A DNA stretch of 32,068 nt from Candidatus Excrementavichristensenella intestinipullorum (GTDB lineage: Bacteria > Bacillota > Clostridia > Christensenellales > Aristaeellaceae): positions 1-32,068 of the forward strand of contig DVHZ01000161.1 in NCBI GenBank assembly GCA_018711685.1. The letters run 5' to 3'. Below are positions 5,384 to 26,760 of the stretch, one piece after another. Position numbers and translations under genes: made by a program. The notes under the pieces were generated by a model. That model was given only the letters and a program-made list of their open reading frames with translations, did no database searches and was not told where the DNA came from. Within the stretch, counting starts at the first letter, position 1, and every line of letters begins with the position of its first letter.

Positions 5384-5419
5384 CCTGACCCCTGAGGGCG
5401 GGCGGCCTCAGGGGTCAGG
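5384..5419 (-). terminator. 14-bp hairpin across the 3' end of the ABC ATPase gene
   Basis: A perfect 14-bp inverted repeat (5384-5397 with 5406-5419) and an 8-nt GC loop include the TGA stop codon (5408-5410) and the last codons of the gene at 5408-6064. No U-tract follows on the minus strand, so it may be a transcript 3'-end stabiliser or a Rho-type end rather than a classic intrinsic terminator. Confidence 0.55.
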
Positions 5420-6064
5420 CGCAAATCCGCTCTGGGCGGTAAAGACGCCCCCGTCCATTTCGGAAACCGTGTCGCACAGCTCCTCGATGTCCCTGGGGTT
5501 GTGGCTGGCCAGCAGGATGGTTTTCCCCTGGCCGCGCAGGTCCTTGAACAGCTGCCGCATGTCCTTGACCCCCGCGTTGTCCAATCCGTTCATGGGCTCG
5601 TCCAGTACCAGCATATCCGGGTTTTCCATGATGGCCTGGGCAATGCCCAGGCGCTGGCGCATGCCCAGCGAATACTTTTCCACGTGTTTTTTGCACTTGG
5701 GGTCCAGCCCCACCATTTCCATCGCCTGGACAATCTCCTGCCGTCCCGCCTGATGGCGGATATCGGCCAAAAACTTTAGGTTGGTCAAGCCGCTGTAGCC
5801 CGCTACAAATCCGGGGGCTTCAATGATGATGCCCATGGACGCCCCCAGGGCTTTCCGGTTCCGGCGGTCCACCCCGTTGATGGTGATTTGGCCGGAATAG
5901 GCGTCCAGCAACCCGCAGATGCACTTGAGCAGGACGGTCTTTCCCGAGCCGTTCCGGCCCACGATGCCGTGGATTCGTCCGGCGTCGAAGGTGGCGTTGA
6001 CCTCTCTCAGCGCCTGGAACTCCCCGAACTTCAGGCCCACGTCGACCAGCTGAACCTGGGTCAT
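5408..6064 (-). CDS. ABC transporter ATP-binding protein, module 1 (peptide export/immunity type)
   Basis: This 218-aa single-domain ABC ATPase shows Walker A GRNGSGKT at residues 36-43, the signature YSLGMRQRLGIAQ, Walker B MLVLDEPMNGLD and a switch His in LASHNPRD. The GIIIEAPGF segment is typical of the lantibiotic-immunity/BcrA-like branch. It follows two ABC-2 permease genes and is last in its operon. The ATG has the ribosome site GAGGAGGGAT. The protein closely resembles the ATPase at 9079-9711 (shared VGRNGSGK-VLLK, KYS-GMRQRLGIAQA and LDEPMN-LDNA), so the two are tandem paralogues. The exported substrate is unknown; export of or protection against an antimicrobial peptide is an inference from the subfamily. 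Confidence 0.9.
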   Translation of the reverse strand: MTQVQLVDVGLKFGEFQALREVNATFDAGRIHGIVGRNGSGKTVLLKCICGLLDAYSGQITINGVDRRNRKALGASMGIIIEAPGFVAGYSGLTNLKFLADIRHQAGRQEIVQAMEMVGLDPKCKKHVEKYSLGMRQRLGIAQAIMENPDMLVLDEPMNGLDNAGVKDMRQLFKDLRGQGKTILLASHNPRDIEELCDTVSEMDGGVFTAQSGFAPDP

Positions 6065-6077
6065 GCGGTATCCCTCC

Positions 6078-6926
6078 TCACGAAGCGGAATAGATGGCTA
6101 TCTTTTTGCGCGTGGCGCACAGCAGGGCGATGGCGGCGGCAAGGCAGCTTGTCGTGGCCGTGACGGCGAAGGCCAGGGTGGGGCGGAAGGTGATCGTCCC
6201 GTCGCCGATCACCTGGAGGGAGCCCCAGGAGCAGGGCGACAGCTTCAAAAACGCCAGGGAGATCACCATGCCCCCGATTTCATTGGACAGAATCGCCAAA
6301 GCCACCACCAGCAGATTGCCCACGGCCCCCCGGCTCCAGGCGTTCAGCGCCAGGGTCCACATGGCCAGCATGGCGCAGGTCAGGGCGTTGAGCAGGACGG
6401 TATAGTGCGCCGCCTGCCCCGCCGTATACAGGCCGATGATTTTCGCGGATATGGGGAGGCGCACCTGGAAGATTGCCGCCGCGTCGGTCTTGGTCAGCGT
6501 CTTGATCACCTTTCCCCATTCCAGGCTCAGGGAGGCGTACCGGTTCAGCACGATGGCGCAGCCCAGCGCCGCCACCACCACGAACAGGCAGCCCCAGAGG
6601 GCGGCGGCGATCATCTTCCCGGCCAGCCACCGGCCGCCGCCGCAGCGCTGGTAGACGTAGGGCTCCGCGCCGTCCCGCCCGGGCAGGTCGCACAGGAACA
6701 GGGCGAACAGGATAAACAGGATGCAGCGGCTGTCCTGGCCATTGAAGATCAGGACCAGGGCCTCCCACACCGATACCTTGTACCCCACCGCGGCGCACAT
6801 GTCCCTGAGGCCGGCCAGATAGTAATCCAGGATGATGACCAGCAGCATCAGGGCGAACAGGGTCCGCGGGGAGCGCAAATTCTTCAGGATATGAATTTTA
6901 GCCACTTGAACGGCGGAAAAAACCAC
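6078..6926 (-). CDS. ABC-2-type permease B, module 1
   Basis: This 282-aa polytopic membrane protein has about six hydrophobic helices and probably forms the export channel with the neighbouring permease and ATPase. After an N-terminal helix comes a soluble segment with PYVYQRCGGGRWLAGK. The paralogue at 9727-10560 has the similar PYLVARCGRCTVVLG at the same place. Translation most likely begins at GTG 6926, which overlaps the end of the upstream permease by 29 nt and has the ribosome site AAGGGGG about 8 nt before it. The ATPase follows 13 nt downstream. No named Pfam family could be assigned by eye. Confidence 0.78.
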   Translation of the reverse strand: MVFSAVQVAKIHILKNLRSPRTLFALMLLVIILDYYLAGLRDMCAAVGYKVSVWEALVLIFNGQDSRCILFILFALFLCDLPGRDGAEPYVYQRCGGGRWLAGKMIAAALWGCLFVVVAALGCAIVLNRYASLSLEWGKVIKTLTKTDAAAIFQVRLPISAKIIGLYTAGQAAHYTVLLNALTCAMLAMWTLALNAWSRGAVGNLLVVALAILSNEIGGMVISLAFLKLSPCSWGSLQVIGDGTITFRPTLAFAVTATTSCLAAAIALLCATRKKIAIYSAS

Positions 6927-7701
6927 GCTCTTTCCCCCTTATCACCACGGTCATCCCCGCGGCAAGGGCCAGGCTGATGCCGGCGAACAGCCCAAACACC
7001 ATAGCGGCAGGCAGCAATATCCCCGGGACGCGGGTTACATAGCCCAGCTGATAATCCCGAAGGATTTGCAGAAAGGGCACATGGAGCCACGCGCAGATGT
7101 AGTCCTTCACGTACAGGATGACCCCCGGGGCGATAAAGGCCATATAGACGTTTGGCCATATGCAGCTCAGCGCCAGGCCCACCACCGCCCACATGCCCGC
7201 CGCCAGGCTCTCGCACAAAATGTGCATGAACATGTACAGCACGTACCGCCCCTCCACCACCAGCGCGTCGAAGCTGTTGATCACGCTCTCGTAGGCGGGC
7301 AGATTGCCCTGGTAGAACAGGGCGGAGAAGCGGGTGCTGATTCCCAGGGTATACAGGGTAATCCCCACCATGGTGGCCAGGCAGGCCGACAGGAAGCAGG
7401 CCGCCGTTTTGGAAAGCACGTAGGCGGACGGCCCCATCCTGTACATTTGATAGGAAAGGCTCCCCGTCTGGGCGTCCTTCACGTAGGCGTCGGCATAGCA
7501 CAGCGCGCCGAAGGCGGGAAACGCCCAGCTCATGGGGCCCATGCCCAGCATCGTTTCCAGGTGAGCCAGCAGATCGGTGGCCCTCTCGCTGTGTACTTCC
7601 TCATAGCCGCCAAAGTACATCAGGGCCGCCAACGCCAGCGCCGCCCACAAAAAGCCCCTGTGGGCCACCGCCCTTCTCAGGTCGTTTTTCAGGATTCGCA
7701 T
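6898..7701 (-). CDS. ABC-2-type permease A, module 1
   Basis: This 267-aa membrane protein starts with a basic N-terminus (MRILKNDLRRAVAHR) and a first helix near residues 17-30. A large outer segment and about five further helices follow. It ends with a basic cytoplasmic tail (RGKERGFFRRSSG). The central sequence ALCYADAYV...YVLSKTAA corresponds to ALPYAGAFW...YFLSKMFA in the protein at 10553-11326, which marks the two as paralogues. It begins 10 nt after the stop of the secreted-protein gene and overlaps permease B. It is probably one half of a heterodimeric exporter. Confidence 0.78.
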   Translation of the reverse strand: MRILKNDLRRAVAHRGFLWAALALAALMYFGGYEEVHSERATDLLAHLETMLGMGPMSWAFPAFGALCYADAYVKDAQTGSLSYQMYRMGPSAYVLSKTAACFLSACLATMVGITLYTLGISTRFSALFYQGNLPAYESVINSFDALVVEGRYVLYMFMHILCESLAAGMWAVVGLALSCIWPNVYMAFIAPGVILYVKDYICAWLHVPFLQILRDYQLGYVTRVPGILLPAAMVFGLFAGISLALAAGMTVVIRGKERGFFRRSSG

Positions 7702-7711
7702 GGCTATTCCC

Positions 7712-8860
7712 TCACCACATGACTTCGTTGGCGACCGCGTCCACCACGATGGGGTCGCTTCCGTCGCTGAAGTAGAAGGTCCACATGGGCGAGAGCTTGG
7801 CGTCCACCCCCAGCTTGCCGTCCGGATAGGGCAGCGCGTAGTATTCCAGGCGAATCCTGGAGCACTCCAGCGCCTCGCTCAGGATGATGCCGTCCAGATA
7901 CCCGGCCGCCGTTTGGGCCGCCTCTTCCACCCCCACAATCCGCTTGACATCGTCGGTCCCCACCAGGGTAAATAGGTTCACGGCCCGAAAATAGATGAGC
8001 CCCCCCTGGTTGTACATGAGCTGAATGTCCGGCACTTGGGAAAAATAGTCCGCCGTGTCAAAATATCTCGCGCTCACGCTGGTGGGAATGCCCTCCAGAA
8101 TTTGGCCAAAGTACAGGATGTACAGGTCTGCGCCGTAGTCGTAAACCTGCTCCCGGTAGGGGGCCATCCGGTCCACGCCGTCGTCCAGGACGAATTCCCG
8201 GTAGGGCAGCGCCTCCCCCGCGCTGATCAACGCCTGGTCGCCGGAATAGACGATCGTCAGCGCAGGCGTTTCCTCGGTGCGTATGCCCACCGCCTTCAGC
8301 AGGGAAGCGCCCGTCTCGCCTATTTCCGCCTTGCTGGCAAAGGGCAGATCCCCCATGACGCGGGTGAAGAGCTGCGGATCTATGGCCGCCGTAGAGGCCA
8401 TGGTAACCGCCTCGTAGGGCGGGAACTGCTGGTTTTTCGCGTAGATCGTCCCGTCGCTGAACGTTATATACGCCGGGTCCTCTACCTGCCAATCCGCCTT
8501 GGCGTAAAGGCGTTCCACCGTCCAGGTGGCATTGTCGTACACCGTTCCGTCCCGCTGCGAAATCATCACCAGCTCGTCCCGGGCCATGTCGGGATAGAGC
8601 AGCGGACAGAGAATATCCAGGATGCCCTCCTCCTCCTCCACGGTGAAGGGGGCCAAAGTGCCGTGCAGCACCCCGATCTCCGCGCCGCCTTCGCATCCGG
8701 AAACCTCCGCGTCGATGTTCAGCCATTCAAAGTCCTCCTGGTACCGCCAGCAGCTGTAGGCGGGTTCTTCCGCCCGTACCGCCCCGGCCAGCAGCAGCCC
8801 CAGGCCCAGGATGACGGCCGCCGCTCTTTTCGCCCCGCTCCATTTCCTGCGCATCTTCAT
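7712..8860 (-). CDS. secreted protein of ABC module 1, unknown function
   Basis: This 382-aa protein has an N-terminal signal peptide: a basic start, a hydrophobic core near residues 15-28, and a likely cleavage after VRA. The mature part is soluble and beta-rich, with no catalytic motif I recognise. The last 120 residues align by eye with those of the secreted protein at 11943-13016. Shared features are a helix with regularly placed Ala, then EYYALPYPDG versus EYLPVPNQG, then P-W-F and a terminal D-V-A-G-V pattern. I chose ATG 8860 (or 8854) because GGAGGGAGGA precedes it; the reading frame stays open upstream to 8995 but carries no signal there. It may belong to a clostridial DUF of secreted ABC-linked proteins (DUF6034 comes to mind, unverified). 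It heads module 1. Confidence 0.75.
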   Translation of the reverse strand: MKMRRKWSGAKRAAAVILGLGLLLAGAVRAEEPAYSCWRYQEDFEWLNIDAEVSGCEGGAEIGVLHGTLAPFTVEEEEGILDILCPLLYPDMARDELVMISQRDGTVYDNATWTVERLYAKADWQVEDPAYITFSDGTIYAKNQQFPPYEAVTMASTAAIDPQLFTRVMGDLPFASKAEIGETGASLLKAVGIRTEETPALTIVYSGDQALISAGEALPYREFVLDDGVDRMAPYREQVYDYGADLYILYFGQILEGIPTSVSARYFDTADYFSQVPDIQLMYNQGGLIYFRAVNLFTLVGTDDVKRIVGVEEAAQTAAGYLDGIILSEALECSRIRLEYYALPYPDGKLGVDAKLSPMWTFYFSDGSDPIVVDAVANEVMW

Positions 8861-8918
8861 TCCTCCCTCCATTTCTGTCCTCGTAAACCGGTATCCCATA
8901 CATCGCAGCCTCATTGGC

Positions 8919-8949
8919 GGAGGATACCGCAAGAAGCGCGGTATCCTCC
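8919..8949 (-). other. 12-bp inverted repeat between the two ABC modules
   Basis: A perfect 12-bp stem (8919-8930 with 8938-8949) encloses a 7-nt loop, about 60 nt before the module 1 secreted-protein gene. No T-run follows on either strand. It could be a processing or attenuation hairpin in a read-through transcript. Confidence 0.5.
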
Positions 8950-9053
8950 TGCTTCGCTTAGCCGTGCCAAGTACCGCTGATTTCCCATTGTCCAATAGAA
9001 GGGGCCTTCATCGCTTTCAGGTTGAATATTTTCCTTGCCCGCCGGGCAACCAT

Positions 9054-9071
9054 CTCCCGGCGTCCCGGGAG
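9054..9071 (-). terminator. hairpin just after the module 2 ATPase
   Basis: CTCCCGG (9054-9060) pairs with CCGGGAG (9065-9071) around a 4-nt loop, 8 nt past the stop codon at 9079. A second small GC hairpin with an A/T-rich tail follows on the minus strand. It may be a weak terminator or a partial transcription block between modules 2 and 1. Confidence 0.4.
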
Positions 9072-9078
9072 GATTAGG

Positions 9079-9711
9079 TCAGCGGGTCTGGGTCAGGACA
9101 CCTGCATCCATGGCAAAGACATGGTCGCAGAGGGTTTCGATGTCCCGCTCGTCGTGGCTGGTGATCACCAACGTCTTGCCCGCCGCTTTGAGCTCGCTGA
9201 ACACGCCTCGCATTTGTTCTACCGTAGCGTTGTCTAGGGCGTTCATGGGTTCGTCCAGGATGATCAGTTGGGGATCTTCCATCAGCGCTTGGGCGATGCC
9301 CAAACGCTGGCGCATCCCTTGGGAGTACTTGCCCACGGGCTTGCGGTCCTGGGGGTTCAGCCCTACCTGCTGGATGGCCTGAAAAATCTGCTCCTTGCCG
9401 ATTTTGCCCCGGACGGCCGCCAGATAACGCAGGTTAGCGTAGCCGGAGCGGTCGCCCAGGAAACCGGGCCGGTCGATGATAAAGCCGGTATTGGGGGCGA
9501 AATCCACTTCCTTGCCGATGCGCCGCCCGTCCACGGCCACATAGCCTTGGTCCGGGGACATCAGCCCCACCACGATTTTGAGCAGCACCGATTTGCCCGA
9601 GCCGTTGCGCCCCACCAAGCCGGTGATCTGCCCGCGTCCAAAGTGGGCGCTCACGTTGGTCAACACCTGTTGGGCGCCGAAACGCTTGCTGACTTGCTGG
9701 ATATCGATCAT
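9079..9711 (-). CDS. ABC transporter ATP-binding protein, module 2 (peptide export/immunity type)
   Basis: This 210-aa ABC ATPase has Walker A GRNGSGKS near residues 35-42, FIIDRPGF in the Q-loop region, signature KYSQGMRQRLGIAQ, Walker B LIILDEPMNALD and switch ITSHDERD. It is the tandem paralogue of the ATPase at 5408-6064 and falls in the same bacitracin/lantibiotic-protection-like branch. It is the last gene of module 2 and starts 15 nt after permease B. The ATG is preceded by GGAGGAAATC. The substrate is unknown. Confidence 0.9.
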   Translation of the reverse strand: MIDIQQVSKRFGAQQVLTNVSAHFGRGQITGLVGRNGSGKSVLLKIVVGLMSPDQGYVAVDGRRIGKEVDFAPNTGFIIDRPGFLGDRSGYANLRYLAAVRGKIGKEQIFQAIQQVGLNPQDRKPVGKYSQGMRQRLGIAQALMEDPQLIILDEPMNALDNATVEQMRGVFSELKAAGKTLVITSHDERDIETLCDHVFAMDAGVLTQTR

Positions 9712-9726
9712 GATTTCCTTCCTCCG

Positions 9727-10560
9727 TCAAACCAGATCTTTTTTGAGCCGTTCCTGGATCAGCAGCACCGCGCTCAGCGCCAGTGCCATCCCCACCAGGA
9801 AGCACCCCCCGTAGCCGTAGGAAAACGTGATGAGGCGATTTTTATAGACGGACAGCCGTGCCAAGGACAGGGGGGAGTATCTTTGTAGGCTCGCGGGAAG
9901 TATGTTATATATCGTGGTGTCCAGCATCACGAAACCCGCCGCGATCCATAGCCCCAAGGGCTTGCCGCTTAGCCGGTTGCCCCAGTATACCACTAGGCCC
10001 AGCCCCCCGGCGCATCCCCATTCCAGCAGCAGCCCGATGAGTAGGGCGCGCCGAGGGGTGAGGCTGGAGCGGATGGCATCGCTGACGGCGATCATACTGC
10101 CCTCCACATGGGGATGGCTCAAGGCCAAGGTATTCCACACCTTGCCCCAGCGGTGATCCCACGCCAAGGTATCCGCCATAGGGGCTACCGAGGCCAGGTA
10201 CAAAAAGGCCACGTACAGGCCAGTCAGCCCCAGAATGGCCAGGATATTGCCCAGCACAACCGTACACCGGCCGCACCGGGCAACCAGATAGGGGTACTGT
10301 TCGTCCAGAAAGGGCGCCCCCGCGCATAGCGCCACAGCGCCCAGCATCAAAAAGAGTTGGGCGATGATGTCGTCCATGATGAATACCGCGGCGTAGGGGG
10401 TGATCTCCAGTCCCCGCTCCCGGGCAAAGTCGCTAAAGGGCTGGGCATAGCTGAACATAAAGATGCCCATCAGGATGAAAACGGCGGCGCTGCGCCAGCA
10501 AAGCAACTGCTGCCGGGCGCGCATTACCGCTACCCAGCCCACTTTGCGCAATCTATTCAC
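9727..10560 (-). CDS. ABC-2-type permease B, module 2
   Basis: This 277-aa membrane protein has about six transmembrane helices. The first, near residues 22-38, follows a basic start. The conserved segment DEQYPYLVARCG matches the equivalent place in the protein at 6078-6926. Translation probably starts at GTG 10560 (GTGAATAG), overlapping the TAG stop of the upstream permease by 8 nt, which indicates translational coupling. With the permease at 10553-11326 it probably forms the membrane part of an exporter energised by the ATPase at 9079-9711. Confidence 0.78.
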   Translation of the reverse strand: MNRLRKVGWVAVMRARQQLLCWRSAAVFILMGIFMFSYAQPFSDFARERGLEITPYAAVFIMDDIIAQLFLMLGAVALCAGAPFLDEQYPYLVARCGRCTVVLGNILAILGLTGLYVAFLYLASVAPMADTLAWDHRWGKVWNTLALSHPHVEGSMIAVSDAIRSSLTPRRALLIGLLLEWGCAGGLGLVVYWGNRLSGKPLGLWIAAGFVMLDTTIYNILPASLQRYSPLSLARLSVYKNRLITFSYGYGGCFLVGMALALSAVLLIQERLKKDLV

Positions 10561-11326
10561 AGCCCATCACCTTCTTCCCGCCTCGGATAAACAGCCAGCT
10601 GGCCAGCGCTACCACCGCCGCCACCGCTCCCAGGCTCATGAGCATGGTGGCAGGTATATTCAGGAACAGGGACCTCATGCGCATCCACTGTATAGGCTGC
10701 CATTCTATGGGGATACGGAGCAACCGGTGAACTTGAATGGAGCAAAATTGAAATATCGCCGGAGCCACCAGTACCCCGTAGTGGTTCCTCACGTAGGGAG
10801 ACGCCCCCACGGCCACGCAGGCGCTCAGCACGCCATCCCCAAAGGCGTAGTACAGGGCTAAGGGAAAGTACCCCAGGGTGAGCGGCCTAAGTACGGCGCA
10901 TTGGTCCCAATCCCCCGGGCTAATCCAATCCAGCCCCGCGCCCCACCGCAGCAGGGCCAGCGTCAAGGCGTGGCCCAGTAGCGCCACCATCCCCCCCAGC
11001 AGGCACGCGGCGAACATTTTTGACAGGAAATAGGTCCGCTTTCCGCACCGGGCCATCACGCTGCCCGCCATGTTGCCGCTGTATTCCGCCCAAAATGCCC
11101 CTGCGTAGGGCAAGGCGCACAACATGTACACCAAATAGGTGCCGTATAGTCCGCCAGAGGCAAAGGAACCATAGTGCATGTAAAACACGCTGGGACTATA
11201 CATGCCCATCATATCCACAAAATTGTCGGCGACAATCAGAAAGGGAACCAGGGCCACCGCCAGCCAAAAGCGCAAACCCAGCCCGCAGCTCAGATCCGCC
11301 CTCATCATGGGCATCAGTTCTTTCAT
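10553..11326 (-). CDS. ABC-2-type permease A, module 2
   Basis: This 257-aa polytopic membrane protein begins MKELMPMMRADL and has a first helix near residues 18-33. A segment ALPYAGAFWAEYSGNMAGSVMARCG follows, then four or five further helices and a basic tail (RGGKKVMGCE). ATG 11326 was chosen because GGGAAGGGAT lies directly upstream, whereas an extended frame start at 11374 has none and would add a charged, non-conserved stretch. It is paralogous to permease A of module 1. It lies 114 nt downstream of the small secreted-protein gene, separated from it by a strong hairpin. Confidence 0.78.
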   Translation of the reverse strand: MKELMPMMRADLSCGLGLRFWLAVALVPFLIVADNFVDMMGMYSPSVFYMHYGSFASGGLYGTYLVYMLCALPYAGAFWAEYSGNMAGSVMARCGKRTYFLSKMFAACLLGGMVALLGHALTLALLRWGAGLDWISPGDWDQCAVLRPLTLGYFPLALYYAFGDGVLSACVAVGASPYVRNHYGVLVAPAIFQFCSIQVHRLLRIPIEWQPIQWMRMRSLFLNIPATMLMSLGAVAAVVALASWLFIRGGKKVMGCE

Positions 11327-11398
11327 TTCTATCCCTTCCCTTCGCTCCCTGCTCCTAGGGCAGGCCTTTGCCACACGGCGGGTCGTATGAATCCCCGA

Positions 11399-13341: not shown

Positions 13342-14823
13342 ATGTCGCGAGAAGAAATCATTGGCCAGCTCATGGAGGGCAAATATGGCGAAATTTACCA
13401 ATGCCTCATGAACGACGCCCGCGCATTTGCACCGGATGCCCCCCTGGATGAAGTGGAAGACTGCCTTCAGGAGGCGTTTCTGCTGCTGTACAGCCAGTGG
13501 CCCAAGTATCAGAATATAAAAAATCTGCCGGGTTGGCTGTATGTCACCGCGCTGAATGCCCTGAGAAACCGGGAGCGGCTCTATCGGGCCCGGAGCAAAA
13601 CGGTGACGGCCAGCTTGGACGATGACAGCGGCGCCCTGCAAAGGGCCGCCCAACGCCTGGACCAATGGGAATGGGCCCAGGCCGCCGAACAAGAATGGAT
13701 ACAGGACGGGCTGCAGAGCATTCGCCAGTGCGTCAGCCAGCAGGAATACGCCTTCCTCTTGGAATGTTTTCGTGGAAAAAACGCCATGAAGCAGATGGCC
13801 CAGGACCAAAACCTCAGCGAGGCCGGCATCCGCAAGCGGAAGCAGCGGGTAATCGATAAGATTAAGCGCCAATTATTTAACATGATATTAACTATTATCC
13901 TGTCACAATTGGGCTTCTCCGTTACACTTTTAAGTGAGGGGAGTATAATGGAGAAAAAAACGCAAGTCCAGGGGGAAGGCCATCCCGATGATGAAGCCCC
14001 GAACCAAGCAGCGCCCTTAAGCAAGGAAAGCGCCGCAGTGGTGGCGGAATTTTTGCGCAGCTTGCCCGCCGATGTATTCGACGAAAGGTGCCTGCGCCTG
14101 CTGTGCCTTTGCAACCGGATTACCGACGCCCAGTTCGGCAAGGACCCGGTGGACGTAGAGGCGGCGATCCGGGAACACAAACGGCGGGTAGCCCAGTATG
14201 AGGCCCAAAAGAGAAGGGAGGCGGCAAAAAACCGGCGCATTGGGCCCAAGGCGGCGGCGGCGCTCATCGCGGCGGCCTGCCTGGTGCTGGCCGGGGCGGT
14301 GTGCTATGGCCTGGGCTGGACCCCCTGGCGCATCTTCACCTGGCAGGATGATGAGCACTACAATTACACCATTTACTCTGGTTTGGACAGCGCCACGGAC
14401 CCCTATACCGCCTTCCAGCCCACCGGATTGGACCAGGAACTGGACCGGCTGCTCCAGCAGTACGAGATCTACCTGCCCCTGCCCACCTGGATTCCCCAGG
14501 GCTACGGCAAGCCCGAGTTCGAGATCGACGTGGTGGATATGATGATCTCGTTTGGGGCATATTTCCCGAAAGATGATCACTATTTGTCCATGGTTATTCA
14601 CAAGGACCTGCCTGGATTTGAAGGCGTCGAGGATGGGTACATGGAAAAAGATAATGACTATTACGAGGAATATACGGTAGCTGGAAACACGTTTATTATT
14701 GTTAGCAATGTAGGAAGATTACAAGCCAAATGGTTTGAACAGCCCTATCAGCTCTTGATTACCGGCCGGGTAACGCCGGATGAAATGCATAGCATTTTGG
14801 ACTCTATATTTGAAAGGGGCTAG
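13342..14823 (+). CDS. ECF-type sigma factor fused in frame to DUF4367-like membrane anti-sigma protein
   Basis: One 493-aa open frame contains two normally separate proteins. Residues 1-175 are an ECF sigma: region 2 has DEVEDCLQEAFLLLYSQW and LPGWLYVTALNALRNR; region 4 spans about 125-175 and ends in SEAGIRKRKQRVIDKIKR. A hydrophobic stretch (181-200) follows. From Met203 an anti-sigma-like protein runs: a soluble segment, a basic stretch (RRVAQYEAQKRREAAKNRR), a membrane helix at about 303-325, and an outer DUF4367-like domain (YLPLPTWIPQGYG to a terminal PDEMHSILDSIFERG). An internal GAGGGGAG followed by ATG at 13948 would allow separate translation of the second part. The ATG at 13342 follows GGGAGGG. 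It is divergent from the ABC modules, whose regulation it may control. Confidence 0.82.
   Translation: MSREEIIGQLMEGKYGEIYQCLMNDARAFAPDAPLDEVEDCLQEAFLLLYSQWPKYQNIKNLPGWLYVTALNALRNRERLYRARSKTVTASLDDDSGALQRAAQRLDQWEWAQAAEQEWIQDGLQSIRQCVSQQEYAFLLECFRGKNAMKQMAQDQNLSEAGIRKRKQRVIDKIKRQLFNMILTIILSQLGFSVTLLSEGSIMEKKTQVQGEGHPDDEAPNQAAPLSKESAAVVAEFLRSLPADVFDERCLRLLCLCNRITDAQFGKDPVDVEAAIREHKRRVAQYEAQKRREAAKNRRIGPKAAAALIAAACLVLAGAVCYGLGWTPWRIFTWQDDEHYNYTIYSGLDSATDPYTAFQPTGLDQELDRLLQQYEIYLPLPTWIPQGYGKPEFEIDVVDMMISFGAYFPKDDHYLSMVIHKDLPGFEGVEDGYMEKDNDYYEEYTVAGNTFIIVSNVGRLQAKWFEQPYQLLITGRVTPDEMHSILDSIFERG
13935..13950 (+). promoter_or_regulatory. internal ribosome site and start codon for the anti-sigma half
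   Basis: GAGGGGAG is followed 4 nt later by ATG (13948-13950), in frame with the upstream sigma part. The two other frames stop just before it (TAA 13931, TGA 13935). It looks like the start site of an originally separate anti-sigma gene. Confidence 0.6.
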
Positions 14824-19955: not shown

Positions 19956-21350
19956 ATGATGAAAAAATGGATTGCTTTGCTTTGCGCCGCCCTGATGACC
20001 TGTATGCCCATTTTCGCACAGGCGGAACCCGTGGGCGATATCGACTGGGACGCCCGCTACCGCTATGCGGAGCTAGAGGCGCAGCTGGAGGAAATCGCCT
20101 CCGCCTATCCCCAGATCGCCCAGCTCTATCCCATCGGCGCCACCTATCAGGAGCGGACGCTGTGGTGCATGGAGCTCACCAACCAGCAGGTTCCGGCGGA
20201 GGACAAGACCGGCATCGCCGTTTTCGGCAATATCCACGGCGGCGAGCGGGAGTCGGCCACCTGCGCCATGTATTTCGCCTGGTGGATGGCCACCCAATCG
20301 GGCACCCAGCGGGTGCAGGACATCCTGGACAAGTACGTGGTCTACGTGGTGCCGGTGATCAATCCCGACGGCTACGAGCAGTCCTTCGTGTATAATACCC
20401 GTCCCAACCTGCGGCCCAAGGACGCCAACGGCGACGGCACCCCCTTCTCCGATCCCTACACCGACATCGACGGCGACGGCTACATCGCCACCCTGTACCG
20501 GGGCACCGCCGAGGCCCAGCCCGACCGCCGGGGCAGCCTGGCCTTCGGCATGGAGAGCCCGGACTGGGACGGCAACGGCATTCTGGGAGATGATCCCCGC
20601 ACCAGCGGCATCGACCTGAACCGCACCTTCGACTATCAGTGGAACCGCTACGACATCGAAACCGCCCAGGACGCCGTCATCGGCAGCAATTCCTGGGCCC
20701 AGGCCGGCAGCGCCCCCGCCAGCGAGCCGGAAATCAAGGCCGTGCAGAACTTCCTGCTGAGCCACGAAATCGACGCCCTGGCCACCCTGCACACCGGCAT
20801 CCAGTGCGTGCTGTATCCCTGGTGCTACCGGCCCTACGACGAGAACCTGGATTCCGACGACATCCTGTTCATGAAGGACGTGGCGGCGGACATGGCGGCG
20901 GCCTACCAGGAGACCACCGGCAGGGGCTTTTACACCAAGTCCTCCTACGAGGACTACCCCACCAGCGCCGAGATGATCGACTACGCCTACGGCCGGCTGA
21001 ACATCCACGCCTATACCATCGAGGTGTACAACGGCGGCAAATCCCAGAGCGGCGACATCGCCGAGTGCAAGTGGGAGAACACCTTGCCCGAGGAAAAGTG
21101 GGTGTTCTACGATCAGGAGCAGCTGGCGGAGATGGGCCTGGATGTGGCCAACCTGAAGGACAGCACCGGAGCAGGCCTGGCCGAGGGCGAAGGGCTTTGG
21201 TTCTACACCAGCGCCACCGCCCAGATGGTGGACAAAGCGCCGGAAAACCAGACCCTGATGGCCGAAGGCTGCCGTGACGCCCTGCTGGTGATGATCGACA
21301 GCGAGCCCTCCGGCGCCGGCTACACCAAGCCGGACTACCTGAACTGGTAA
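19956..21350 (+). CDS. secreted M14-family zinc carboxypeptidase
   Basis: This 464-aa exported metallopeptidase has a signal peptide (MMKKWIALLCAALMTCMPIFAQA) and a single catalytic M14 domain. The HxxE zinc pair is His94 and Glu97 in NIHGGERES. The third ligand is probably His279 in TLHTG, and the general-base Glu is Glu356 in IEVYNGG. NPDG and NTRPNLRP provide substrate-binding residues. Asp-rich inserts (DANGDGTPFSDPYTDIDGDG) resemble calcium-binding loops. It probably trims peptides or peptidoglycan stem peptides outside the cell; the exact substrate is unknown. GAGGGGG precedes the ATG (a second ATG is 3 nt on). It is monocistronic with its own promoter and terminator. Confidence 0.9.
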   Translation: MMKKWIALLCAALMTCMPIFAQAEPVGDIDWDARYRYAELEAQLEEIASAYPQIAQLYPIGATYQERTLWCMELTNQQVPAEDKTGIAVFGNIHGGERESATCAMYFAWWMATQSGTQRVQDILDKYVVYVVPVINPDGYEQSFVYNTRPNLRPKDANGDGTPFSDPYTDIDGDGYIATLYRGTAEAQPDRRGSLAFGMESPDWDGNGILGDDPRTSGIDLNRTFDYQWNRYDIETAQDAVIGSNSWAQAGSAPASEPEIKAVQNFLLSHEIDALATLHTGIQCVLYPWCYRPYDENLDSDDILFMKDVAADMAAAYQETTGRGFYTKSSYEDYPTSAEMIDYAYGRLNIHAYTIEVYNGGKSQSGDIAECKWENTLPEEKWVFYDQEQLAEMGLDVANLKDSTGAGLAEGEGLWFYTSATAQMVDKAPENQTLMAEGCRDALLVMIDSEPSGAGYTKPDYLNW

Positions 21351-21394
21351 ACCCTTTCGGGCCGAACCCTACGGCGGGTTTCGCCCTTTCGCAA

Positions 21395-21434
21395 AACGCC
21401 GCACCCAAGCCTTTCCTTGGATGCGGCGTTTTTT
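21395..21434. terminator. terminator between the carboxypeptidase and AraC-type genes
   Basis: The stem AACGCCGCA-CCAAG pairs with CTTGG-TGCGGCGTT (21395-21409 with 21416-21430, one mismatch). It is followed by a T6 run on the plus strand. It lies between convergent genes and may act in both directions. Confidence 0.88.
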
Positions 21435-21480
21435 GTGGCGGGGGATGGGGGCAGAGGCCTTCGCGTGGGGCTGGGGCGCG

Positions 21481-22173
21481 TTATGGTTCGGCGTCTTCTT
21501 CCAGGGGCGGGGGCGCGGAGGCGCTGGGGACGCCGATTTTGCCGCTGCGGATGCGGTAGGCCTGGGGCGTGGCGTTCATGTGGGCGCGAAAGACCTTGCA
21601 AAAGTAGGCGGAGGAGGCAAAGCCGCTGAGTTCGGCGATCTCCGCCACCGACAGGTCCGAGGTGTCCAGCAGGGTGCAGGCATTTTGCAGCCGGAAATCC
21701 AGGATGGCTTTGGCCGGGGTGGTGCCATACTGCTGTTTCAGGCAGCGGATGATATGGGTGGGATGGTAGTTGGTTACCGCGGCGATATCGCTCAGGGATA
21801 TCTTTTTGGCGTAGTTGGCCTGGATGTACTGCATCACCGTTTGGGCCAAGCTATTGACGCCGGCCCCCTCCCCCGCAGGCGTCAGCGCCGATAAAATCTG
21901 CAAAAATATGGCCTGCTGCTCCAGGGTGCTCAGGTTTCCCCCCACGTTTTTGACGCTCTGGGTGTATTTGTTGATGGAAATGCTTTCCAGGCGCTGCATC
22001 AGGGCCAATACGGCGGGCAAGCGCTGGGAGGGGATCATTTGAAAGATGGGCAGCAGAAAATCGTAGTACCGGTCGTGGTTGTTCACCGTTTGGGTGGCGG
22101 GAAAGGAGCGCCGGCGGGGCAGGGCGGAGGCCGTGGTACAGGTCACCTGAGTGGCCGTGTCCATGTGGAGCCA
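21481..22173 (-). pseudogene. AraC-family regulator, truncated at its N-terminus
   Basis: About 230 aa of an AraC/XylS-type transcription factor remain. The sequence begins at WLHMD, normally about residue 80 at the end of the cupin-like sensing domain. It continues through a linker (INKYTQSVKNVGGNLSTLEQQ) to two intact HTH motifs near the C-terminus (ISLSDIAAVTNYHPTHIIRCLKQQYGTTP and LSVAEIAELSGFASSAYFCKVFRAHMNATPQAYR). The frame continues upstream only as the antisense of the solute-binding protein gene, so the true N-terminus and promoter are missing. It presumably regulated the adjacent sugar transporter and GH127. The loss is either a real deletion or an assembly join. Confidence 0.75.
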
Positions 22174-22977
22174 AAGGATCACTTCGCCGAAGCCGGTCTG
22201 GACCCGGAAAAGGGCCCCGCCACCTGGGACGAGCTGATTGAGTACGCCCAGAAGCTGACCACCGAGGACCATTACGGCTACGTGTTCGGCGCCGGCGATT
22301 CCGGCACCATGATGTTCACCTTCGTGCCCTACATCTGGTGCAACGGCGGCGACGTGATGAGCGCCGACGGCACCCAGTCCATGCTGGATCAGCCCGAGGC
22401 CGTGGAGGCGTTGCAGCTGATGTGCGACCTGGCCAACGAGTACAAGGTATGCCCCGAGGGCATCACCGCCTACGGGTGGACCGAGTCTCAGGACGCCTTC
22501 CTCAGCGGCAAGGCCAGCATGATCGTGCTGGGCAGCGCGGCGGTGTGGAGTATGCTCACCGGCGAGTACGACATCAACGCGGGCAGCTGCCTGATTCCCT
22601 CCAAGGACGGGGTCACCTACTCCTCCTTCAGCGGCGGCGACAGCCTGGCCATGGTGTACGACTGCGCCAACCCGGACGTGGCTTGGGACTTCATCGAGTA
22701 CTGCCTCAGCGAGGACGTACAGGTGGAGGAGATGGCCCAGTACGGCCAGCTGCCCGCCCGTTCCGACCTGTTCGACAACCAATACTTTGAAGCCAACCCC
22801 GAGTTCCAAGTGATGCGGGAGGCGTTGGCGGTGGGCGAAGCGCCCTATAGCCTGAAGTACAACGAGATGTACGTGCCTTTCCTGGACGGGGTGCAGGCCG
22901 CCATCAACGGCGTCATGACCGCGGAAGAAGCCTTTGCCTCTGCCGCCCAGAACATCAACGCCCTGTTGGCCGAATAA
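22174..22977 (+). pseudogene. sugar ABC transporter solute-binding protein, 5' end missing
   Basis: About 267 aa of the family-1 extracellular solute-binding protein are left. The sequence begins KDHFAEAGLDPEKGPATWDELIEYA, which in the family follows LYYN about 150 residues in. The rest is intact (VWSMLTGEYDINAGSCLIPS, FSGGDSLAMV, AWDFIEYCLSEDVQ, TAEEAFASAAQNINALLAE). The signal peptide, lipobox and N-terminal lobe half are absent. The frame stays open upstream to a TTG at 22039, but this is only the antisense of the AraC-type gene. It heads a transporter operon with the permeases at 23.1 and 24.0 kb. Without the N-terminus the protein could not be exported or bind sugar. Confidence 0.8.
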
Positions 22978-23011
22978 CCTTGGCCGCCTGGTAAACCGCT
23001 CACGGATATCT

Positions 23012-23051
23012 GCCGGCTCCTTTTCCTCCCTTGGGGCGGGAAGGAGCCGGC
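23012..23051 (+). other. hairpin between the binding-protein and permease genes
   Basis: An 11-bp perfect stem (23012-23022 with 23041-23051) has an 18-nt loop. Such hairpins behind binding-protein genes often protect the upstream mRNA so that the binding protein is made in excess. There is no U-tract. Confidence 0.6.
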
Positions 23052-23052
23052 C

Positions 23053-23994
23053 TTGCGCATCGACCCTTTGTCGAAAGGAGAGGATTTCTCATGGGGGGGC
23101 ACCGCCGGCGGATCGCTGCGCCGCAGTCTGGTCAGGCGCAGGTTCCTGAACATGGGCTTCGTGGTTCCCGTGCTGGTCATCAACCTGGTCTTTTTCGTCT
23201 ATCCCCTCATCCGGGTCATCTACATGTCGCTGTTCAATTGGCAGCTGCTGGGCAACCAGAAGTTTATCGGCCTGACCAACTACCTGAACGCCTTTAAAGA
23301 CCAAACCTTTCTGAACTCCCTATGGTTTACCGCCCGGTATGCCCTGCTGGTCACCCCCATGCTGTTCCTGCTGGCCTTCGTGCTGGCGCTGCTGGTGAAC
23401 CACGCCATCAAGGGCATCGGCATTTTCCGCACCATATACTTCGCGCCGGTGGTCATTTCCATGACCAGCTGCAGCCTGATCTGGCTGTGGATCTACAACG
23501 ACCTGTACGGCGTGCTCAACTACATCCTTACCTCCTTGGGCCTGATTGAGAAGAACATCACCTGGATGAGCCAGGCCAGCACTTCCCTGCCCGCCGTGTG
23601 CTACATGATTACCTGGAAGATGGCCGGGTTCAACATGCTCATGCTGCTCTCCGCCATCCAGGGTATTGAGGACGACGTGTACGAGGCGGCGGCCATCGAC
23701 GGCGCCAGCGGTCCCGGCCGCTTCTTCCGCATCACCCTGCCCTTGATCCGCCAGAATATCGGCCTGGCCCTGGTGATCCCGGTGATTGGCTCGGTGCTGG
23801 CTTTTGAGCAGTTCCGCATTATGACCAAGGGCGGCCCCTCCTCCAGTACCTTGACGGCGGTGAACTACATGTACAACACCTCCTTCAAGTACTTCAAGTT
23901 CGGCTACGGCGCGGCGCTGTCCATGATTCTGCTGGTCATCCTGGGCCTGCTGAGCTACTTCCAGTTCAGAATTATGCGGGATCCCACGGAATGA
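23053..23994 (+). CDS. sugar ABC transporter permease, first subunit (start region possibly frameshifted)
   Basis: This is a carbohydrate-uptake permease of the MalF/UgpA type, up to 313 aa, with six hydrophobic helices from residue 34 on (MGFVVPVLVINLVFFVYPLI). The EAA loop is YEAAAIDGASGPGRFFRITLPLI. The best ribosome site and start, AAAGGAGAGG then ATG at 23091, is out of frame with the gene because seven Gs follow. With six Gs it would read MGGTAGGSLRRSLV in the correct frame. As it stands, translation would need TTG 23053 (AAGGAG 6 nt before) or ATG 23152 with a weak site. Downstream sequence is intact. The second permease starts 16 nt after the stop. Confidence 0.82.
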   Translation: MRIDPLSKGEDFSWGGTAGGSLRRSLVRRRFLNMGFVVPVLVINLVFFVYPLIRVIYMSLFNWQLLGNQKFIGLTNYLNAFKDQTFLNSLWFTARYALLVTPMLFLLAFVLALLVNHAIKGIGIFRTIYFAPVVISMTSCSLIWLWIYNDLYGVLNYILTSLGLIEKNITWMSQASTSLPAVCYMITWKMAGFNMLMLLSAIQGIEDDVYEAAAIDGASGPGRFFRITLPLIRQNIGLALVIPVIGSVLAFEQFRIMTKGGPSSSTLTAVNYMYNTSFKYFKFGYGAALSMILLVILGLLSYFQFRIMRDPTE

Positions 23995-24010
23995 GAAAGG
24001 AGGAACCACC

Positions 24011-24874
24011 GTGACCCAGACGCCGAAAATCAGCCGCCGCTCCCAGGTCACCCGGGGAAAAACCAGCATCATCATCGCCAACGTGCTCCTGGCGCTGATC
24101 TTCCTCATGCCCCTGTATTGGACCTTTATTTCCTCCTTGAAGGACAAAGTGGAGATCTACGCTGCGCCCCCCACCCTGGTGCCCCAGGCCGCCTCCTGGG
24201 ACAACTACGTCCGCCTGTTCACCACCCTGAACGGGGCTATGGTCGGGTATCTGAGAAATTCCCTGGTGGTGGACGGATGCACCATCGTCGCGGTAGCGGT
24301 AATCAGCACCCTGGCGGGCTTCGCCTTTTCCCGGCTGGAGCTCTTCGCCAAAAAGCTGTGGATGGCCCTGATCCTGTTCACCATGATGGTGCCCTTTCAG
24401 GCGCTGATGGTGCCCTTGTACAACACCATGTCCCAGCTCAAGCTGCTCAACAGCCTGGCTTGTATGGTGCTGATCTACACCACCTATCAGACCCCCTTCT
24501 GCGTGTACATGATGAAGAATTCCTTCGACATGATTCCCAAGGCCATGCAGGAGGCCGCCCACCTGGACGGTGCAGGCAGCTTCGACATCTTCCGGCGCAT
24601 CTACCTGCCCCTGGCCATGCCCGGGCTGGTCACCGCCATCGTCTATACCGCCTACACCACCTGGAACGACTACCTGATCGCCCTCACCTTCGGCGGCACC
24701 AATTGGAAGACCTTTAACGTGGGCATCGCCGACCTGGCGTTGCAGCCCGAAAGCGTGCTGGACTGGGGCGCCATGACGGCGGGCTCCATCGTGAGCCTGC
24801 TGCCCATCATGATCCTGTTCCTGTGCCTGCAAAAGTATTTTGTCAAGGGAATGATGAGCGGCGCGGTAAAGTAG
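24011..24874 (+). CDS. sugar ABC transporter permease, second subunit
   Basis: This 287-aa MalG/UgpE-type permease has six membrane helices (first near residues 22-40, NVLLALIFLMPLYWTFISSL). The EAA loop EAAHLDGAGSFDIFRRIYLPLAMPG contacts the shared ATPase. The GTG start at 24011 follows AAAGGAGGAACC. No ATPase gene is present in this locus, as is normal for such sugar transporters that borrow an MsmK-type ATPase encoded elsewhere. It probably imports an oligosaccharide containing L-arabinose, judged by the GH127 gene 20 nt downstream. Confidence 0.92.
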   Translation: MTQTPKISRRSQVTRGKTSIIIANVLLALIFLMPLYWTFISSLKDKVEIYAAPPTLVPQAASWDNYVRLFTTLNGAMVGYLRNSLVVDGCTIVAVAVISTLAGFAFSRLELFAKKLWMALILFTMMVPFQALMVPLYNTMSQLKLLNSLACMVLIYTTYQTPFCVYMMKNSFDMIPKAMQEAAHLDGAGSFDIFRRIYLPLAMPGLVTAIVYTAYTTWNDYLIALTFGGTNWKTFNVGIADLALQPESVLDWGAMTAGSIVSLLPIMILFLCLQKYFVKGMMSGAVK

Positions 24875-24894
24875 CGCCGAAAAGGAGGAAACGT

Positions 24895-26628
24895 ATGACC
24901 ATCCATCGCTTACTGCAGCGGCTGAGCCTGACCTGCGTCAAGCCGGAGGGCTGGCTGAAGGACCAGCTGCAAATCCAGATGAACGGCCTCAGCGGGCGGC
25001 TGTACAGCCTGTGGGACAGCGTGGGCAGCTATTCCGGCTGGCTGGGCGGCAGCGGTGAGAGTTGGGAGCGGGCCCCCTATTATCTGGACGGGCTCGTGCC
25101 TCTGGCCTACTATTTGGAGGATCGGGAAAAGATGGAGCTGTGCCGCCGCTTCATCGATTGGACGCTGGACAGCCAGGACCAAGATGGCAATTTCGGCCCC
25201 TATCCCACCAAGGCGGACTACTGGTCCCGCTACGTCATGCTCAAGGTGCTGGCCCAGTACCAGGAAATCACCGGGGATGAGCGGGTGCTGCCCTTCATGC
25301 TGCGCTATTTCGCCTACATCGCCCGGGCCATCGACCAGCGGCCCCTCACCGAATGGTCCAGCTTCCGTGTGCCGGACCTGCTGTGGTGCATGAAGTGGGC
25401 CTACGAGCTCACCGGCGATCCCCGCATTCCGGAGTGGGCCCGCAAGCTGGACGCCAACGCCTTTGACTGGGTGGACTACATGGCCTGCCTGCCCTTCCCC
25501 CGCCCGGCCAAGTTCTACATCAACTGGAAAAACCTGAGCCTGTTGGCCCATGCCCAGTTCGACCAAACCGTGCCCTTCCACGCCACCCATATCGTCAACG
25601 TCACCATGGGGGTAAAGCACCCGGCCATGCGCTACGCCTTTACCGGCGGCGAGGAAAACCGCGCCGCCATGTACCAGGGCCTGGAGGACCAAAAAAAATA
25701 CCACGGCGTGGTGTCCGGCTGCATCAACGGGGACGAGCACCTGGCGGGCAACGATCCCAATCAGGGCTCCGAGCTGTGCTCCGTAGTGGAGGGCATGTTC
25801 AGCCTGTCCTCTATGATGGAGGTTTTCGGCGACCCGGTGCTGGGCGACCACATGGAGCGGCTGGCCTTCAACGCCCTGCCCGCCACCATCAGCGAGGATT
25901 GGATGGGCCACCAGTACCTGCAGCAGGCCAACCAGGTGCGCTGCACCAACGAAAAGCGGCCCTGGTTCAACAACGGCCCCGACGCCAACACCTTCGGCCT
26001 GGAGCCCAACTTCGGCTGCTGCACCGCCAACATGCACCAGGGCTGGCCCAAGTTTGTGCAGGCGCTGTGGTACCGCCAGGAGGACGTGCTGGTCTGCATG
26101 GTGCTGGCCCCCAGCGCGGTGGATACCCCCCTGGCCGGGGGCAGGGCCCGGGTGCGGCTGCTCACCCAGTATCCCTTCCGGGATACCCTGACCTATCGGA
26201 TTGAGGAAGCGCCCGCCCAGGGGCTGTCCCTAAAAATCCGCGTGCCCGGCTGGTGCGCCTGCCCCCAGGTGAACGGGCGCCCGGTCCAGGCGGAGGGCAG
26301 CTTCATCCTGCTGAGCGGCCTGGCCGCCGGAACGGAAATCGCCCTTCAGCTGCCCATGGAGGTGCGCCAAAGCCACTGGTTCCGGGACAGCGTAGCGGTG
26401 GAGCGGGGCCCGCTGGTGTACGGCCTGGACATTCAGGAGCGCTGGGAGCCCTACCGCAGCGCCGCGGGGGTCCAGGACTATCAGGTATACGCCGATAGCC
26501 CCTGGAATTGGGCCTTGATCCAGGACGGCCAGGCCCAGGTGGAGGAGCGCCCGGTCACCGAAGTGCCCTTCTCCCATGCCGGAGCGCCGGTCGCCATCAC
26601 CCTGCCCGCCCGCCGCCTGGACAGCTGA
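24895..26628 (+). CDS. GH127 (DUF1680) beta-L-arabinofuranosidase-like glycosidase, interrupted by TGA
   Basis: This 577-aa cytoplasmic glycoside hydrolase has an (alpha/alpha)6 barrel followed by beta-domains. The zinc-cysteine active site of GH127 is visible: ExC in GSELCSVVEG near residue 293 and the Cys pair in NFGCCTANMHQGWPKF near 372. Such enzymes release L-arabinofuranose by a cysteine nucleophile. The ATG has AAAGGAGG 6 nt upstream. The TGA at 26626 is followed in frame by about 43 more codons that continue the family C-terminus (SPV...VRLIPFGCTRLRI). The expected residue at the stop is Trp (TGG). The protein made is therefore probably missing its last beta-strands. It belongs to the sugar-transport operon. 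Confidence 0.88.
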   Translation: MTIHRLLQRLSLTCVKPEGWLKDQLQIQMNGLSGRLYSLWDSVGSYSGWLGGSGESWERAPYYLDGLVPLAYYLEDREKMELCRRFIDWTLDSQDQDGNFGPYPTKADYWSRYVMLKVLAQYQEITGDERVLPFMLRYFAYIARAIDQRPLTEWSSFRVPDLLWCMKWAYELTGDPRIPEWARKLDANAFDWVDYMACLPFPRPAKFYINWKNLSLLAHAQFDQTVPFHATHIVNVTMGVKHPAMRYAFTGGEENRAAMYQGLEDQKKYHGVVSGCINGDEHLAGNDPNQGSELCSVVEGMFSLSSMMEVFGDPVLGDHMERLAFNALPATISEDWMGHQYLQQANQVRCTNEKRPWFNNGPDANTFGLEPNFGCCTANMHQGWPKFVQALWYRQEDVLVCMVLAPSAVDTPLAGGRARVRLLTQYPFRDTLTYRIEEAPAQGLSLKIRVPGWCACPQVNGRPVQAEGSFILLSGLAAGTEIALQLPMEVRQSHWFRDSVAVERGPLVYGLDIQERWEPYRSAAGVQDYQVYADSPWNWALIQDGQAQVEERPVTEVPFSHAGAPVAITLPARRLDS

Positions 26629-26760
26629 CAGATGGAGGGCGGCAACGCGGCCGTCCTGCCCCATAGCCCGGTATCCTGCGGCGCGCCCCAACAACCGGTG
26701 CGGCTGATCCCCTTCGGCTGCACCCGCCTGCGCATCGCCCAATTCCCCTGGTGCCTGTGA
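26629..26760 (+). pseudogene. detached C-terminal tail of the GH127 gene
   Basis: Directly after the TGA, the same frame reads QMEGGNAAVLPHSPV, then VRLIPFGCTRLRIAQFP, and stops at 26760. This is the usual ending of DUF1680 proteins. There is no ribosome site or separate start, so it is the remainder of the upstream gene, reached only by read-through or after reversion. Confidence 0.7.

Follow-up and report, generated by a model that had tools for sequence, protein, structure and literature searches.

Probable recent inactivation of a locus for sugar uptake and cleavage in Candidatus Excrementavichristensenella intestinipullorum, with regulator and binding-protein genes truncated at one shared junction

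The closest parallels to the gene cluster described here are two loci of the same bacterial family (L097 and L098) in which an AraC-type regulator gene lies divergent from an operon encoding permeases, a family 1 solute-binding protein (SBP) and a GH127 glycosidase, and whose gene content matches that of our cluster. A third locus of the family (L038) has a regulator, a binding protein and two permeases as in the window, by which we mean the whole 32,068-nucleotide stretch of DNA analysed, itself an entire contig; its divergent regulator is LacI-like, judging by reading its sequence. In all three the genes are complete and the divergent genes stand apart by 26, 171 or 242 bases, whereas the two genes in the window abut directly and are both truncated. 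L097 and L098 also differ from the window in gene order and regulator length, the divergent neighbor of their regulator being a permease. A divergent AraC-type gene with a transporter-GH127 operon was found in 2 of 19 GH127 regions of relatives, namely these two, and was not seen by the same test in the other 17, in several of which a contig end is nearby. Their arrangement makes plausible an original layout of the window locus in which a regulator was divergent from a binding protein, two permeases and a GH127 glycosidase. The features of the cluster are as follows.

21481..22173, minus strand: C-terminal 230 residues of an AraC-family regulator, N-terminal part missing (PF12833/PF00165, codon log-odds, full-length relatives).
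22173..22174, no strand: junction, with an abrupt switch of coding strand and no intergenic sequence (codon log-odds).
22174..22977, plus strand: C-terminal 267 residues of a family 1 SBP, signal peptide and N-terminal part missing (PF01547; relatives L016, L017 and L008).
23091..23994, plus strand: first permease (PF00528), with a probable frame break at its start, where the ATG at 23091 is out of frame.
24011..24874, plus strand: second permease, apparently intact (PF00528, profile positions 8-182 of 184).
24895..26757, plus strand: GH127-type glycosidase with an in-frame TGA at 26626-26628 and a homologous tail of 43 residues (PF07944, PF20736, alignments).

We consider it probable that 21481-26757 once served sugar uptake and cleavage and has recently been inactivated, with a promoter-spanning deletion as its main lesion. 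At 22173/22174 the regulator on the minus strand meets the SBP on the plus strand with zero intergenic bases. The initial annotation had the regulator homology ending in WLHMD, which would match a strand motif of AraC-type proteins, at 22162-22173; the motif is there, and its codons span 22159-22173, one codon more than had been given. The binding-protein homology does begin, as had been proposed, with KDHFAEAG on the plus strand, its K being encoded by 22174-22176, and the letters of 22120-22240 agree with the earlier description. The AraC reading beside the junction is taken from codon statistics and not from the WLHMD motif. A codon log-odds score trained on 17 window genes and applied in 60-base windows is positive in the AraC frame for the windows starting at 22030-22150 (+15.1, +5.0, +6.3, +2.5 and +4.1), and in the SBP frame reaches +10.3 at 22180 and +20.7 at 22210. 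In the 120 bases to the AraC side of the junction the scores are +10.6 (AraC frame) and -34.4 (SBP frame); in the 120 bases to the SBP side they are -4.7 and +30.1, respectively. The AraC codon signal is the weaker of the two, as a window within its gene (21850) scores below zero (-4.2).

Open frames do run across the junction on both strands, with 442 aa on the minus and 312 aa on the plus strand, each from a TTG, and might be taken to mean that the genes work in their shortened form and belong to a class of short homologs with conserved starts. Since the codon statistics change strand at the junction, these frames are not whole genes. The extensions are the antisense of the neighboring gene, and the one on the plus strand has non-coding codon statistics (the -34.4 over 120 bases given above) and by eye no signal peptide. 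No equally short homologs sharing a conserved start were seen, and 8/8 of the aligned SBP relatives are full length; we regard functional short genes as highly improbable.

Domain coverage points the same way on both sides. The regulator retains its C-terminal double HTH domain (PF12833, E 1.7e-19, profile positions 1-78 of 80, residues 130-207 of the 230-aa reading 22173->21481), and its N-terminal sensor or partner domain is incomplete. In the best alignments its first residue falls at about position 67 (L020), 89 (L030) and 98 (L032) of full-length relatives, so that 66-97 residues are missing ahead of the same point; stand-alone full-length relatives measure 272-315 aa, and the missing part would be larger if measured against the two-component relatives of ~500 aa in L097 and L098. 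MAFFT set the first AraC residues far upstream, a placement that we disregarded as an end-gap artefact. The SBP matches PF01547 from 22174 on (E 5.7e-24, profile positions 118-306 of 307), retaining the C-terminal part of the SBP_bac_1 fold, to which several PDB relatives align from residue 1-3 on; Pfam coverage, alignment with relatives and codon statistics all indicate that the signal peptide and the N-terminal lobe are absent. Intact relatives read YYN followed by KDAFKEVGLDPE, align from the K at 22174, and carry ~154-157 residues ahead of it, the count starting at the signal peptide's first M/V. The nearest of them, 33-36% identical and full length, come from two genomes of the same family, and one SBP relative in the sister genome of the genus is likewise full length and aligns from this K. 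In the organism's own genome 20/22 SBP_bac_1 matches begin at profile position 16 or earlier, the only late starters being the window gene (118) and one sub-threshold match on contig C176 (112). Pfam, the alignments of relatives and codon statistics thus bear out the earlier claim that both genes lack their 5' parts at one common junction.

Adding the ~155 missing SBP residues, the 66-97 regulator residues and an intergenic gap of the size seen in the related loci gives a loss of ~0.7-1 kb, provided that the two genes were immediate neighbors, and the size originally estimated is in keeping with this. The initial annotation had further described a divergent pair joined by the loss; the truncation at one junction holds, and the immediate neighborhood of the two genes is suggested by analogy with the 2/19 GH127 regions. 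As the regulator's divergent neighbor in L097 and L098 is a permease rather than the SBP, the loss may have been larger, and 0.7-1 kb would be a lower bound if regulator and SBP genes were not adjacent. A deletion of at least ~0.7-1 kb would have taken both 5' ends and, with them, the divergent promoter region. No promoter-like sites are found in 21300-23100. The hexamer AAGGAT can be assigned to either side of the junction, which makes a few bases of microhomology possible.

The comparison with relatives called for by the earlier reading yielded full-length, distant relatives of the SBP and the regulator. No close intact ortholog of the locus was found, either through the permease (E 1e-70, 396 genomes of the order, own included) or through the AraC fragment (E 1e-24, 396 genomes), and the other of the two genomes in the genus holds no close copy. 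An SBP search at E 1e-40 proved too strict and returned the window only; at E 1e-20 relatives (33-36% identical) appeared in 2 of 395 other genomes of the order. A search for related loci gave two only, both distant, and we accordingly infer the original layout from distant relatives.

The initial annotation left the choice between deletion and assembly collapse open, and the junction could also be an assembly artefact, a chimeric join or collapse that dropped at least 0.7 kb from an intact locus. This is a possible reading, albeit an unlikely one. The assembly is a draft of 2.68 Mb in 206 contigs, with estimated completeness of 89.8% and contamination of 1.5%, so the missing pieces may merely be unassembled, and the fragments on either side of the junction are otherwise undecayed. 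Against a collapse, the 1.7 kb searched around 22173/22174 (21400-23100) contains no repeat of at least 12 bases that touches the junction, and a common repeat as its cause was rejected on this ground; moreover, the 15 bases encoding WLHMD give no binding-protein reading on the opposite strand, which argues against a shared repeat of k-mer length. DNA searches revealed no second copy of 21300-23100 in the own genome, nor are there orphan N-terminal pieces of the SBP or the regulator in the assembled genome. The N-terminus of a relative's SBP found seven places, all in other genes; six of the frames have 414-473 codons, and the seventh, of 291, also matches the whole profile. The four AraC_binding matches are likewise all in other genes, the three short ones being by eye ordinary small cupin genes. 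There is thus no sign of a simple rearrangement within the assembled genome. A mixture of strains, some cells bearing the deletion and others an intact locus, of which the assembler kept the shorter path, would explain why the bin contains no orphan piece and why the fragments are undecayed; nothing indicates a second allele, and we hold this to be very unlikely.

Two features downstream of the SBP, both outside the coordinates of the initial annotation, help in choosing between real decay and an artefact. In the first permease a ribosome-binding-site-like AAAGGAGAGG and the ATG at 23091, which is followed by seven Gs (the whole stretch being 23074-23100), are shifted by one frame relative to the permease, and the switch lies at this G run. 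Because alternative starts exist in the permease frame (TTG 23053, TTG 23068 and an internal ATG), a disruption of this frame at its start is probable and not certain. A frame shift at a run of seven Gs is also a classic sequencing error. Between the SBP and permease genes there is a G+C-rich hairpin (23012-23051), and the fold of 22975-23095 is no stronger than that of shuffled sequence (z -1.0).

The glycosidase retains its catalytic and middle domains (PF07944, positions 62-374 of 376; PF20736, 8-95 of 95), and its C-terminal tail is interrupted by a premature TGA followed by 43 in-frame homologous codons. Relatives are common in the family (53/150 genomes at E 1e-60, own included). Among the best-scoring 19 foreign relatives of the family-wide search, which formed our alignment set, 19/19 have Trp in the TGA column, and 18/19 pairwise alignments reach query residue 618 or beyond of 621; the nineteenth reaches 608, and its frame meets no stop before the retrieved stretch ends. 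Pfam finds no match on the tail alone, and its homology is therefore drawn from the alignments with these 19 relatives. One of them (L042) is 45% identical over 622 aligned residues, including the tail behind the TGA. What sets the window gene apart from these PF07944-family glycosidases is its early TGA, after which 43 homologous codons follow. That TGA might encode Trp in this organism was considered and is not supported, as 0/22 SBP_bac_1 matches have an inner stop and the first permease itself ends at a TGA just ahead of the ribosome-binding site of the next gene.

The cluster thus has more than one separate disabling lesion, namely the junction, the TGA in the GH127 gene and the probable permease frame break, and the presence of the latter two in the same cluster favors real decay over an assembly artefact. 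These two could in part be consensus errors, as an artefact would have it, but the GH127 lesion is of the substitution type. By Pfam coverage, no evident truncation is seen in any of the window's 14 further genes that match a Pfam family (14/14), a contrast that is no fair statistical test, as the cluster was inspected more closely than the other genes and its lesion count is biased; seven further scanned genes have no Pfam match and lie outside this count. Elsewhere in the window a single 493-aa frame (13342-14823) combines matches to sigma-70 region 2 and DUF4367, which may represent the fusion of a sigma factor with a usually separate neighbor, and 5408-11374 contains two sets, each an ABC ATPase gene with adjoining membrane-protein-like genes, the latter without Pfam match.

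On the preferred reading of decay, the system would have imported and cleaved an L-arabinofuranoside-like glycan fragment, a substrate suggested by the GH127 gene. Bereft of the signal peptide and the N-terminal lobe of the binding protein, of the N-terminus of the regulator and of the promoter, uptake is presumably dead, and the premature TGA in the glycosidase, read directly in the sequence, and the probable permease disruption would be further lesions. The decay is likely to be recent, given that the frames that remain contain no stops. It is conceivable that the cluster is instead switchable or leaky, with the length of the seven-G run varying between cells, the UGA of the GH127 gene (followed by C) being read through, and the shortened regulator acting as a sensor-free HTH protein, such that some of the cells would still express part of the locus, although we give this very little credence. 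Nothing hints at a new kind of system, and ordinary gene decay is the likeliest explanation.

If real, the lesions would make this organism another bacterium that is losing a glycan-uptake locus, through a promoter-spanning deletion together with point lesions. Annotated automatically, the region would show two permeases and a glycosidase, and the organism would be credited with a pathway that it has probably lost.
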